Shown here: piece by piece, positions 10,531 to 13,429 of the stretch | Numbering within the stretch: the stretch's first letter is position 1 | How the letters are laid out: each line of letters opens with the position of its first letter | Assembly (NCBI RefSeq): GCF_000204015.1 | Contig: NZ_GL883079.1 | Location: 635,572 to 679,496 of the forward strand | Direction: 5' to 3' | From: Asticcacaulis biprosthecium C19 | GTDB lineage: Bacteria; Pseudomonadota; Alphaproteobacteria; Caulobacterales; Caulobacteraceae | Length of the DNA: 43,925 bases | Made by a program: the position numbers and the translations under genes | Notes under the pieces: model-generated | What the model was told of the DNA's origin: nothing | The model's input: only the letters and a program-made list of their open reading frames with translations | The model's database searches: none

Positions 10531-10559
10531 ACGGCCGGGAATGTCCCGGCCGTTTTTTT
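10531..10559 (+). terminator. Strong rho-independent terminator of the TonB-receptor gene
   Basis: ACGGCCGGGA (10531-10540) and TCCCGGCCGT (10544-10553) form a perfect 10-bp stem closed by ATG. A run of seven T follows, to 10559. The T-run touches the stop codon of the opposing lipoprotein gene (10558-10560), so the two convergent genes are packed with no spare bases. Confidence 0.9.
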
Positions 10560-11313
10560 ATCTGCGTTTCTTGCTGGTCCGCTTTTTCGACGTCGTCTTC
10601 TTTACCGGTACGTCTGCGACGGGCTTAGGCGGCTGAACGTAGGTCTCGACATAGACCCGCGGCTTGAACCACGAGGGCGCCGCTGGCGGGGCGCAGTTCT
10701 TGTTCATGCCGACACCCTTCAGGTAGGCGCGACGCACCTTGCCGGCCTGGATAGCGTTGTCGAGTTGCTTCTGGTGCTTGTCAGCGCCCGACAGGTAACG
10801 AATCGCGCCGCGGAAGGGAACAATGCCACGGGTCGCGCCACGCACCGCACCGACGGCCTGCTTATTGGCGAAGGCCTTGCCTTTTTCGCTATTGGTACGC
10901 TCGTCCTTGGGGGGCGGGGGTTCGTCGAAATCCCGGCCCAGCAGAGCGTCCAACTGCGCGACCTGAGAGGCGATGGCTTCGCAGTTGTCCAGCCCCGCCA
11001 GGTCGTAGGGCTTGATGACAGCGTTTTGCAGGATTTCCGGAATGTCCTGGCGCTTGAGATTGAAGTCTTCGAGCGGCGCGGTAAAGGCGTCACCCCAGTC
11101 GTTATTGTCCTCAGTGCTCTGGCGCATGCGTTCGGTGCTGGCCGATTCACGGCCGCGGCCATCCTCGCGCGCCCCATTCTCTGGACGGACCTTGTCGCCC
11201 TCACGCGGCGGCGCCGTATCGATGGGATATTCCGGCGATGACGCGCAGGCGCCAAGGCTCAGTGAAACTATCATTAAACAGGCTGTGACGAAAACCGTCC
11301 GGCTTCGTGTCAT
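10558..11313 (-). CDS. Lipoprotein of unknown function with basic C-terminus
   Basis: The protein has 251 residues from the ATG at 11313. Its signal peptide is MTRSRTVFVTACLMIVSLSL with lipobox LGAC next to it. After the lipid anchor comes a long charged, low-complexity linker (about 30-75), then a folded part with NCEAIASQVAQLDALLGRDFDEPP. A glycine/alanine stretch (KQAVGAVRGATRGIVPFRGA) resembles glycine-zipper segments that contact membranes. The last 20 residues are Lys/Thr/Arg-rich (KKTTSKKRTSKKRR). GGGGGG precedes the start. A structural envelope role is possible, but no family was recognised. It is convergent with the receptor gene. Confidence 0.75.
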   Translation of the reverse strand: MTRSRTVFVTACLMIVSLSLGACASSPEYPIDTAPPREGDKVRPENGAREDGRGRESASTERMRQSTEDNNDWGDAFTAPLEDFNLKRQDIPEILQNAVIKPYDLAGLDNCEAIASQVAQLDALLGRDFDEPPPPKDERTNSEKGKAFANKQAVGAVRGATRGIVPFRGAIRYLSGADKHQKQLDNAIQAGKVRRAYLKGVGMNKNCAPPAAPSWFKPRVYVETYVQPPKPVADVPVKKTTSKKRTSKKRR

Positions 11314-11518
11314 GGTTCGCCCCCCATCAGCCTGATCAGGCCATAAGCTCATTCACCCGCCTCCGCCCCGACTGTACTTATGACAGCTTCCGGGCATAAA
11401 AAAACAATACACAAAAATGGCCTCGCGCGCTTGCGCAATGCGGAACTCCCCTCTATGTAGTCGCTCACGTTTGATCCACCCTTTTTGGTTCCGGGTCAAG
11501 CCGTTACGTCTTTGGCAA

Positions 11519-11595
11519 GAGCCCGTAGCTCAGCTGGCTAGAGCATCTGACTTTTAATCAGAGGGTCCTGGGTTCGAGTCCCAGCGGGCTCACCA
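11519..11595 (+). tRNA. tRNA-Lys (anticodon UUU), CCA encoded
   Basis: The acceptor arms GAGCCCG (11519-11525) and CGGGCTC (11585-11591) pair perfectly and are followed by A and an encoded CCA. The D-arm reads GCTC..GAGC. The anticodon stem is TCTGA/TCAGA around the loop CTTTTAA, giving anticodon UUU. The T-arm is CTGGGTTCGAGTCCCAG. All canonical parts are intact. Confidence 0.97.
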
Positions 11596-12035
11596 AGTCA
11601 ACTTAAATTGGCTTGCGTGACATAATCATGGCAAAGACGACATTTACCCCATACAATATGTGGCCAATTGTTACCGGCCGGCGCGCCGCCGCTTCGGTCG
11701 GCGTCTGAAGACGAAGTCTGGCCGGTCTTCACGATGGACAGCAGCTTCGTCCGTGGTGAAAGCGTGAGGCGCTGGAATTTGAGGCAGCGTCGCCTCTCGC
11801 ACCCTGCAGCTTTGCATGTCTGTTTCCGTCGCTTCAAGATGAAGCGGCACACGCCCTAAGACCGCGTGTATGGTGGCTTTCGCGTGTGGCATTTTGCCAC
11901 TCATCCTGCGCGCGGCAGCGAACGTAATCCCTTCAGTATCTCGTCCGGCGCCCGGCCTTAGCCAGAGGCTGCTCAGTGGATTGCCGGCGATCGGACAGCC
12001 TTTTTTAACCAGGTCCTTCTGAACGGATTGTTGCC
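11596..12035. other. 440-base gap without a supported gene; one perfect palindrome
   Basis: No frame here has both a ribosome binding site and recognisable protein character. The only clear structure is GTGGCATTTTGCCAC at 11886-11900, a 6-bp perfect palindrome whose core equals the element repeated in the flagellin leaders. The region should contain the promoter of the PdxJ-like/SdhE fusion gene, about 135 bases downstream of the palindrome. Confidence 0.45.
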
Positions 12036-13073
12036 ATGACCGTCGCTATGCAGCCTCGCAAGCTGAATTTGAGCATCGCCAGCGCCGCCATGTTGCCGAT
12101 GGTCCGCAAAGAACCCTCCATGTCTTTGGCCGCTATCGCGGAGGCTGGTCTGCGTGGCGGGGCAGACGGCATTTTGCTCCACCTGACCGATGAGCGTTGG
12201 CTGGTCCGCGAGGACGATTTCGAGCAGGTCAGGCGAGTCTGTTCGGAGATGGACAGGTCATTTCAGTTGCGCCTGTGGAGCGCAGGCCCGCTGATCACGA
12301 CGGCGCTGAAATTTCGGCCCGATGTCGTCTGTTTAACCGCCGAGAGCAAGATCGGCAGCCCCCAAAGCTATGGCCTCAGTTTCCGCGGCAACCTGGGCCA
12401 AATCAAATCTGCCTGTCAGCGTTTGAAAGACATTGGCGCACGCTGCTACGTCTCGATAGATGCAGGCCTGGAGGCAGTTGAAAACGCGCTGAAATCTGAC
12501 GTTGACGGCATCGAATTCGACACGAGCGATTTGTGCGACGCTATACGGGGCGGCAATCTGAAACTTGTGGACGAAAGATTTACCCACCTTTCCTCCATGG
12601 CGCGCTATGCGTCGCGGCACGGATTGGGCGTACAGGCCGGGCACGGGCTGGATTTTGAAGCGCAGCGGCTGCTGGCGCGCGTCCCCCAGATCCGCGGGAT
12701 CAATATGGGGCGTTATCTTATCGGTGGCGCGCTGATGCATGGCCTCACCGCCATGGTCGCCGAGGCCAAAGGGATCATGCTTCATGCCGGGAGCGGTCTG
12801 GATGGTCTCGACGCGCGCCGGCAGGCCTGTCTCTATCGTGCAAACTATCGCGGCTTCCGCGAGATGGACATCATCATGTCATCCTTCGCGCAGGCTGTCG
12901 TGCCTGCCCTGGTAGATCCCGACCTGTTCATGTTCGAGCACATCCTAGAAATGCCCGACCATGACCTTTACGAACGGATCAGGTCCACGAACGAACCGGA
13001 ACAAGGCCTGCACATCGAACTGCTGACCAACCTGCGCGACCACTACAAACAGAGCCGTTGGCTTTGCCAATGA
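12036..13073 (+). CDS. Fusion of a degenerate PdxJ-like barrel with an SdhE (succinate dehydrogenase assembly factor 2) domain
   Basis: This is a single 345-residue frame. Residues about 8-252 follow the pattern of pyridoxine 5'-phosphate synthase PdxJ: AGLRGGADGILLHLTDER, RPDVVCLTAES, GNLGQIKSACQRLKDIGA, DGIEFDT, VQAGHGLDFEAQ and INMGRYLIGGALMHGL. By alignment from memory to E. coli PdxJ, His49, Glu160 and His203 match His45, Glu153 and His193. The catalytic Glu72 is Arg79, the N-terminal NIDH is SIAS, and the GHAIIGRA phosphate region is GRYLIGGA, so normal synthase activity is doubtful. Residues about 261-340 are a full SdhE domain with the RGxxE motif at 272-276 and MPDHDLYERI. SdhE helps attach FAD to SdhA. 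No clear ribosome binding site precedes the ATG. Confidence 0.88.
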   Translation: MTVAMQPRKLNLSIASAAMLPMVRKEPSMSLAAIAEAGLRGGADGILLHLTDERWLVREDDFEQVRRVCSEMDRSFQLRLWSAGPLITTALKFRPDVVCLTAESKIGSPQSYGLSFRGNLGQIKSACQRLKDIGARCYVSIDAGLEAVENALKSDVDGIEFDTSDLCDAIRGGNLKLVDERFTHLSSMARYASRHGLGVQAGHGLDFEAQRLLARVPQIRGINMGRYLIGGALMHGLTAMVAEAKGIMLHAGSGLDGLDARRQACLYRANYRGFREMDIIMSSFAQAVVPALVDPDLFMFEHILEMPDHDLYERIRSTNEPEQGLHIELLTNLRDHYKQSRWLCQ

Positions 13074-13099
13074 GGCCCACAGGCCGCCGCCACGACGCC

Positions 13100-13429
13100 T
13101 CAGTTCGCCAGTCGCACCTTGGGCAGATAGCGCCCATTCTCATAGCGATCGAACAACAGACGGGTCTGTGGGTGGTGCAGCGGCCCACCGGCGGTGTCCG
13201 GGCATAGATTGCCTTCGGAGGCATAGGCGACATAGTGGCTGTCGCCGTTCTCAGCCAACAGATGATAGAAGGGCTGGTTCTTGCTCGGACGTACGCTCTC
13301 GGGAATGGCTTCCCACCATTCGTCGGTATTGGCGAACTCGGGATCGACATCGAAGATGACGCCACGGAACTCGAACAGATTGTGCTTCACGATCTGACCG
13401 ATATCAAATTTTGCGCGCTGTTCTTGCAT
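13100..13429 (-). CDS. hspQ: Heat shock protein HspQ (YccV family)
   Basis: The protein has 109 residues, the usual length. HspQ binds hemimethylated DNA in vitro and, in enterobacteria, acts as a specificity-enhancing factor for Lon protease. The family signature is clear: AKFDIGQIVKHNLFEFRGVI at the N-terminus, then VDPEF, PFYHLLAENGDSHYVAYASE and a C-terminal F-x-RYENGRYLP. It is convergent with the PdxJ-like/SdhE fusion gene, with only 26 bases between stops. The upstream region is shared with the Ppx/GppA gene. Confidence 0.9.
   Translation of the reverse strand: MQEQRAKFDIGQIVKHNLFEFRGVIFDVDPEFANTDEWWEAIPESVRPSKNQPFYHLLAENGDSHYVAYASEGNLCPDTAGGPLHHPQTRLLFDRYENGRYLPKVRLAN

Follow-up and report, generated by a model that had tools for sequence, protein, structure and literature searches.

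A PdxJ-like barrel fused to an SdhE domain

At 12036..13073 on the forward strand of the 43,925-nucleotide stretch of Asticcacaulis biprosthecium C19 DNA analysed here (the window), one open reading frame, 345 codons long, runs from an ATG at 12036 to a TGA at 13073 and encodes a 345-residue protein in which a PdxJ-like barrel is followed by an SdhE domain. The uninterrupted frame, the two domains and the motifs RGFRE and MPDHDLYERI in the second of them had been proposed from the letters of the DNA alone (the original prediction), and all are borne out by the open reading frames of the window, Pfam, homologues and a structural model. The exact start is uncertain, since another in-frame ATG sits 12 bases downstream. 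Alignments, the model and a fold search place the TIM barrel at residues 9-252 (12060..12791, forward strand), while Pfam, alignments and the model place the five helices of the SdhE domain at residues 258-340 (12807..13055, forward strand); the RGFRE that corresponds to the RGxxE motif of SdhE is found in the translation and alignments at residues 272-276 (12849..12863, forward strand). The G+C content of the gene is 0.592, against 0.602 for the window.

Pfam PdxJ matches residues 10-247 above its curated cut-off (5.8e-36, 124.2 bits) and Pfam Sdh5 matches residues 266-336 (4.7e-13, 49.3 bits against a cut-off of 27). In NCBIfam, six PdxJ models match the protein, all with scores under their cut-offs (at best 123.7 bits where 331 are required), so that by this standard the fusion is not a pyridoxine phosphate synthase; the NCBIfam SdhE model gives 20.4 bits against a cut-off of 120, and the SdhE domain is part of a 345-residue fusion, not a small stand-alone protein of the SdhE type. 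An AlphaFold2 model built from a 33-row alignment (pLDDT 88.5, pTM 0.87) predicts eight strands arranged in the order of a barrel and, after them, a five-helix bundle, and the folds ranked first in the PDB are those of PdxJ, with a TM-score of 0.92 on the target. The separate genes for the two functions, whose presence had been proposed as a check on the fusion, are both found in the 5.4 Mb genome: an ordinary-looking pdxJ, 30% identical to the fusion, in which NVDHVATVRNARGG, HLREDRRHI, FEMAVT, GHGIDY and NIGHFLIGEA are all intact, and a stand-alone sdhE with RGFKE.

Distribution within the genus Asticcacaulis

Seven of the 25 genomes of the genus carry the fusion, with a match along most of its length (G000, G052, G042, G062, G064, G070 and G074), and an eighth copy lies on plasmid pASDW145_1. 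The carriers with names are A. excentricus CB 48, A. excentricus M6, A. currens and the strains AC402 and DW145, together with two metagenome-assembled genomes; in M6, CB 48 and DW145 the gene lies on plasmid records of 244-345 kb, where its product bears the name pyridoxine 5'-phosphate synthase, a label that is very probably wrong. CB 48 was isolated from pond water. Six of the seven genus copies are uninterrupted and colinear, as is the copy on the DW145 plasmid, and these independent copies rule out a sequencing error joining two genes at the junction, an artefact that the original prediction had named as one that would refute it. In the remaining copy, from the fragmented genome G074, a stop codon interrupts the SdhE part, which might be taken to mean that the fusion is a decaying pseudogene or an assembly artefact, but this reading is hardly credible in view of the intact colinear copies and of dN/dS ratios well below 1 in the A. 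excentricus group (see below).

Beyond the genus, evenly drawn subsets of the order, class and phylum were searched. In the order sample 97 of 200 genomes, the window genome included, match the fusion profile at 1e-30; among the matches listed, every one but the window fusion itself has its end no later than profile position 286, and wherever the end is beyond 258 the match passes through a stop; these matches were therefore taken as ordinary PdxJ. At the strict cut-off no fusion is seen in the order sample apart from the window genome, and none at 1e-38 in 385 class or 398 phylum genomes, again with the window genome set aside, a cut-off that a fusion as distant from the profile (alignment A1) as ordinary PdxJ would escape. 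A pattern scan of the GTDB collection returned four loci, all from Asticcacaulis. On a two-gene tree of the genus (hspQ and ppx) the carriers occupy at least two separate places, at least two changes being needed to explain them, and five of the seven form one clade.

Insertion site and history of the fusion

In the window the fusion lies between a tRNA-Lys(ttt) gene (11519..11595, forward strand) and hspQ (YccV-like; 13100..13429, reverse strand), within a stretch whose approximate limits, from comparison with G052, are 11682..13098. Upstream of the tRNA gene, on the other side from hspQ, is a second syntenic gene (10558..11352, reverse strand), lipoprotein-like by eye and with no Pfam match, which 23 of the 24 other genomes of the genus also have close to hspQ; in none of these 24 is the fusion found beside hspQ. 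The gap between tRNA-Lys(ttt) and hspQ is short in G052, and a close relative of the window genome (G067, locus L143) has about 7 kb with ORFs that by eye resemble RHS/YD-repeat genes between the lipoprotein-like gene and hspQ. With the fusion at this place in one genome and RHS/YD-repeat-like ORFs in another, the gap (11596-13099) looks like an insertion hotspot in Asticcacaulis. Site-specific integration was also considered and rejected, as the insert is not bordered by any convincing direct repeat of the tRNA end.

The history of the fusion departs from that of other genes. Between the window genome and AC402 identity is 88% for hspQ, 85% for ppx and 83% for the COQ8-type kinase described below, but 38% for the fusion, and by BLAST the window fusion is nearer to the PdxJ of its own genome (5e-30) than to the fusions of AC402 (1e-21) or of the A. 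excentricus group (1e-11 to 1e-14). Pfam PdxJ scores the window and AC402 fusions equally (124.2 and 124.8 bits). A divergence so far beyond that of hspQ, ppx and the kinase suggests either that the two fusions are of different descent or that they have evolved very fast. In a tree of the barrel the six compared fusions form one group (support 100/96) on very long branches, owing to which the parent of the fusion barrel cannot be named.

The active site of the barrel

Residues of the pocket are given in E. coli numbering, which was checked against the pocket residues named in passages of PMC10471632 and against a PDB alignment. Two alignments were used: A1 holds seven fusion rows, including DW145 and omitting G074 for its internal stop, while A3, from which DW145 is also omitted, sets six fusions against 26 PdxJ rows. 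In A3, 13 sites conserved in PdxJ have switched to one common new residue in all six fusions and 19 are retained in all six. As 25 of the 26 PdxJ rows (two of which, L016 and L069, are identical) came from a list filtered for NxDHxAT and NIGH, the 26/26 counts for these two motifs are partly so by construction, and the PdxJ residues were therefore recounted free of the filter, over 102 loci of which 101 have a PdxJ-type ORF, giving 98 distinct proteins that take in five of another PdxJ-like type and the divergent paralogue L176.

Five residues that are present in nearly all of these 98 proteins are found in none of the six fusions, namely R17 and E72 (98 each) and R47, H52 and H216 (97 each). 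Each of the five has one replacement common to all six fusions: R17 to P, R47 to T, H52 to L, E72 to R and H216 to R. H155 (92/98) and H12 (93/98) are missing from all six as well, with D for H155 and S or T for H12, and N9 is likewise replaced in every one. Because the other PdxJ-like type (5/98) also lacks both H12 and H155, the loss of these two alone would not show lost activity. In the window protein the changed sites are S13, P21, T51 (R47), L56, R79 (Glu72), D162 (H155) and R226. The claim that the NIDH start had been lost holds, SIAS standing in its place, as does the assignment of Arg79 to the Glu72 position, and careful alignment, far from restoring a full catalytic set, adds further replacements at R47 and H155. 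At the phosphate site the GH of the NIGH loop has become GR (226), with Gly215 and Asn213 kept.

A second set of sites is preserved. His45 (97/98 PdxJ-type proteins), Glu153 and Gly215 (98 each) and Gly194 and Asn213 (92 each) are retained in all six fusions, and the window protein thus keeps H49 (His45), E160 (Glu153), N223 (Asn213) and G225 (Gly215), together with Gly194. It also keeps H203 (His193), a residue invariant in the 98 PdxJ-type proteins and replaced by glycine in the five other fusions. The region matching the E. coli 95-105 loop, the lid, is degenerate in the window protein, where residues 105-109 have a pLDDT under 50. Glu72 and His193 have roles in PdxJ catalysis. As far as the alignments can tell, residue loss in the fusions is patterned and the active site is rewired, not erased; the barrel has presumably lost B6 synthesis, and the two new arginines beside the kept phosphate-loop glycines point to an anionic ligand, which suggests that the predicted pocket may still bind something anionic.

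Outside the fusions, the other PdxJ-like type seen in the class (L174, L175, L177, L178 and L179) has NxNK for NxDH, Tyr for His155 and Ser for Asn213, and is very far from the common type. A stand-alone divergent PdxJ-like ORF (L176:2012-2872, reverse strand) occurs in the class genome G294, which has another PdxJ-like gene; by eye it sits between RelA/SpoT-like and AcpS-like ORFs, and its product, like the fusions, carries Arg in place of His216 and Asp in place of His155, while retaining Glu72 and His193.

Selection on the two parts of the protein

Within the A. excentricus group (G042, G070, G064, G062 and DW145; ten pairs, compared without gaps by NG86 and split at residue 253) dN/dS is 0.12-0.21 for the barrel against 0.28-0.36 for the C-terminal part, so that by this measure both parts of the fusion are under purifying selection, the barrel more strongly. 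A relative close enough to put the window protein through this comparison was not found. In the barrel, invariant polar residues are enriched on the active-site face (7 of 18, p 0.016) and all invariant positions weakly so (13 of 55, p 0.08), where the face was defined after the model had been seen.

A rival reading makes the barrel a new enzyme whose substrate is phosphorylated and in which Arg79, Asp162 and Arg226 have taken over catalysis or binding. The charge-changing replacements are fixed in all six fusions, the phosphate-loop glycines, His45 and Glu153 are kept, and in the A. excentricus group constraint is stronger on the barrel than on the C-terminal part. We nevertheless consider a new enzyme unlikely: His193, present in all 98 PdxJ-type proteins, is glycine in five of the six fusions, the lid is degenerate and poorly modelled in the window protein, and no neighbouring gene indicates a pathway.

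The SdhE-derived domain

The C-terminal domain falls into two types. In the window and AC402 proteins RGFRE and PDHxLY are preserved and the domain can be aligned with the SdhE of the window genome, and the AC402 fusion scores 49.5 bits with Sdh5. All five A. excentricus-group rows of A1, in contrast, lack RGxxE, and none of the three proteins of this group that were scanned singly matches Pfam Sdh5; over the seven A1 rows Sdh5 matches three at E-values up to 1, one of them a weak match from the A. excentricus group. The A. currens domain gives no match to the SdhE of the window genome by direct BLAST. It is 32% identical to that of AC402 over 82 residues (1e-9), and the model of the A. currens fusion (pLDDT 87.9) again has five helices in this part; from the match and the model together the domain is considered homologous.

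In SdhE the carbonyl of the RGxxE glycine hydrogen-bonds to the FAD-bearing histidine of FrdA, according to passages of PMC5773532, and a Shewanella relative is described in parts of PMC8621075 as requiring RGxxE yet acting other than through SDH. Both accounts, with the motifs kept in the window and AC402 proteins, would fit a fusion that uses its SdhE domain as a second flavinylation factor, acting on SdhA or on some other covalent flavoprotein, with the barrel as its scaffold or regulator. Against this, the window genome has its own SdhE, and in the A. excentricus group, where RGxxE is missing and Sdh5 is found in none of the three proteins scanned singly, the gene is still under selection; RGxxE-type flavinylation therefore cannot be what the family as a whole has been conserved to do. 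The suggestion of the original prediction that the fusion tunes flavinylation accordingly fails as a general rule, and is possible for the window and AC402 type alone. A second flavinylation factor seems improbable to us, about as much so as a new enzyme.

A COQ8-type kinase with the same distribution

A COQ8-type ABC1 kinase is present in exactly the seven genus genomes that carry the fusion, additional to an ABC1 kinase found in all 25; G079 too has a second ABC1 kinase, which is not the COQ8-type one of the carriers. The chance of the same seven genomes out of 25 being hit is 1 in 480,700 if genomes are taken as independent, which they are not, and because five of the seven carriers form one clade the co-occurrence rests on few independent events. 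The kinase gene is head to head with the fusion, and divergent from it, in five of the seven carriers (G052, G042, G062, G064 and G070) and in DW145. In G074 the contig ends at the fusion and the kinase is on another contig. In the window genome the two genes are unlinked, the kinase gene being found close to an IS66 transposase on a different contig, for which reason the fusion-kinase pair may be broken there; the discordant histories of fusion and kinase further weaken the claim that both act as a pair in this genome. The transposase (L105:6726-8327, reverse strand) may have caused the cluster to break up.

The closest PDB relatives of the kinase are COQ8B, the top match, and COQ8A (3e-58 to 1e-53), while in NCBIfam the MABP-1 and UbiB models come first, the kinase falling far under both cut-offs, and no COQ8 call is made. 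Outside the genus, relatives of about 38-48% identity occur in six class-sample genomes besides the window genome; the fusion is absent from all six of these regions, and no recurrent neighbour was found among ten mechanically picked ORFs from them. In one such genome (G405) a stand-alone SdhE-like ORF (L114:12489-12935, forward strand) lies about 4.5 kb from the kinase relative, which may be chance.

Other genes recur near the fusion. A DUF3429 gene is found in six of the seven carriers (the AC402 version, 38% identical, lying beyond the kinase), as is a gene for a short photolyase-type FAD-domain protein, cut by the contig end in G070 and missing from the window genome. An NAD(P)/FAD oxidoreductase gene lies near the fusion in G042, G062, G064, G074 and DW145, and a full photolyase gene in AC402. 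The presence of the FAD-domain gene could speak for a flavinylation factor, but photolyase-type FAD is not covalently bound. Two of the FAD-domain proteins (L060:5909-7177 and L061:7637-8851, both forward strand) have 405-423 residues with the photolyase-type FAD domain in the first half; no N-terminal photolyase domain is detected in them, and the second half might, at a guess, be a rearranged antenna domain.

A proposed pseudoenzyme with a docking domain

Taken together, these observations favour a reading in which the fusion is a family-specific pseudoenzyme that binds a ligand, uses its SdhE-derived domain for docking and works together with the COQ8-type kinase. We put its probability at roughly 45%, ahead of a second flavinylation factor, a new enzyme or a regulator of PdxJ. 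The PdxJ-derived barrel would no longer produce pyridoxine phosphate and would retain its phosphate-type pocket in a remodelled form able to bind an anionic ligand; the SdhE-derived bundle would dock a client protein (probably a flavoprotein or redox protein) under the control of the ligand state of the barrel; and the COQ8-type ABC1 kinase/ATPase would act in the same process, by which a membrane redox protein is assembled or maintained. We infer the function as a whole, and with it the ligand, the client, the coupling of barrel to docking and the joint action of fusion and kinase. The more specific proposal, in which the barrel is a sensor of a phosphorylated or flavin-type ligand and controls redox-protein assembly by way of the SdhE arm and a dedicated COQ8-type ATPase, is doubtful, if somewhat less so than either the enzyme or the flavinylation alternative.

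A regulatory role of another kind would be co-assembly with the true PdxJ, by analogy with plant PDX1.2 and PDX1. PdxJ is an octamer built from dimers, with a pocket at each dimer interface, as stated in passages of PMC6253932, PDX1.2 is described in parts of PMC6071262 as binding other PDX1 proteins and as a likely positive regulator, and the window genome does have an intact-looking PdxJ with which the fusion might assemble. The fusion is, however, just 30% identical to that protein, a B6 gene was not seen near the fusion, and the SdhE domain and the kinase would be left unexplained, so that we regard regulation of PdxJ as quite improbable, more so than the enzyme or flavinylation alternatives.

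If the more specific, ligand-sensing proposal were true, the fusion would found a protein family not described before and be a new kind of cofactor-dependent assembly factor, forming an accessory unit within one genus. A disarmed PdxJ whose new pocket residues are common to the fusions offers a natural experiment on how a TIM barrel is re-used, and its exact co-occurrence with a second, COQ8-type kinase offers a small genetic handle on the function of such kinases in bacteria, as well as on partners of SdhE-type domains beyond complex II.

Comparison with known systems

Literature searches returned no paper that joins PdxJ with SdhE, none linking DUF3429 with photolyase and none linking Asticcacaulis with the name pyridoxine 5'-phosphate synthase. 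The view in the original prediction that no protein of this build had been described is consistent with these searches; as far as they reach, both domains are known and their combination is undescribed.

With PdxJ (PF03740) the fusion shares the barrel fold (TM-score 0.92), His45, Glu153, Asn213 and the phosphate-loop glycines; it differs in the absence of N9, H12, R17, R47, H52, E72, H155 and H216 from the fusions, in the restriction of H193 to the window protein, in its C-terminal SdhE domain and in falling short of the NCBIfam cut-offs. With SdhE/Sdh5/SDHAF2 (PF03937) it shares the five-helix bundle, seen in the window model, and RGxxE, kept in the fusions of the window and of AC402, although here the domain is fused behind a barrel and RGxxE is missing in the A. 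excentricus group. Plant PDX1.2 offers a parallel as a paralogue of a B6 synthase that is itself no synthase and exists alongside an active one, but it belongs to the unrelated B6 synthase PDX1 and has no SdhE domain. Finally, the COQ8/ADCK3-type ABC1 kinases, with COQ8B the best match, are the nearest solved type to the co-occurring kinase, and we know of no PdxJ or SdhE fusion as a partner of these kinases.
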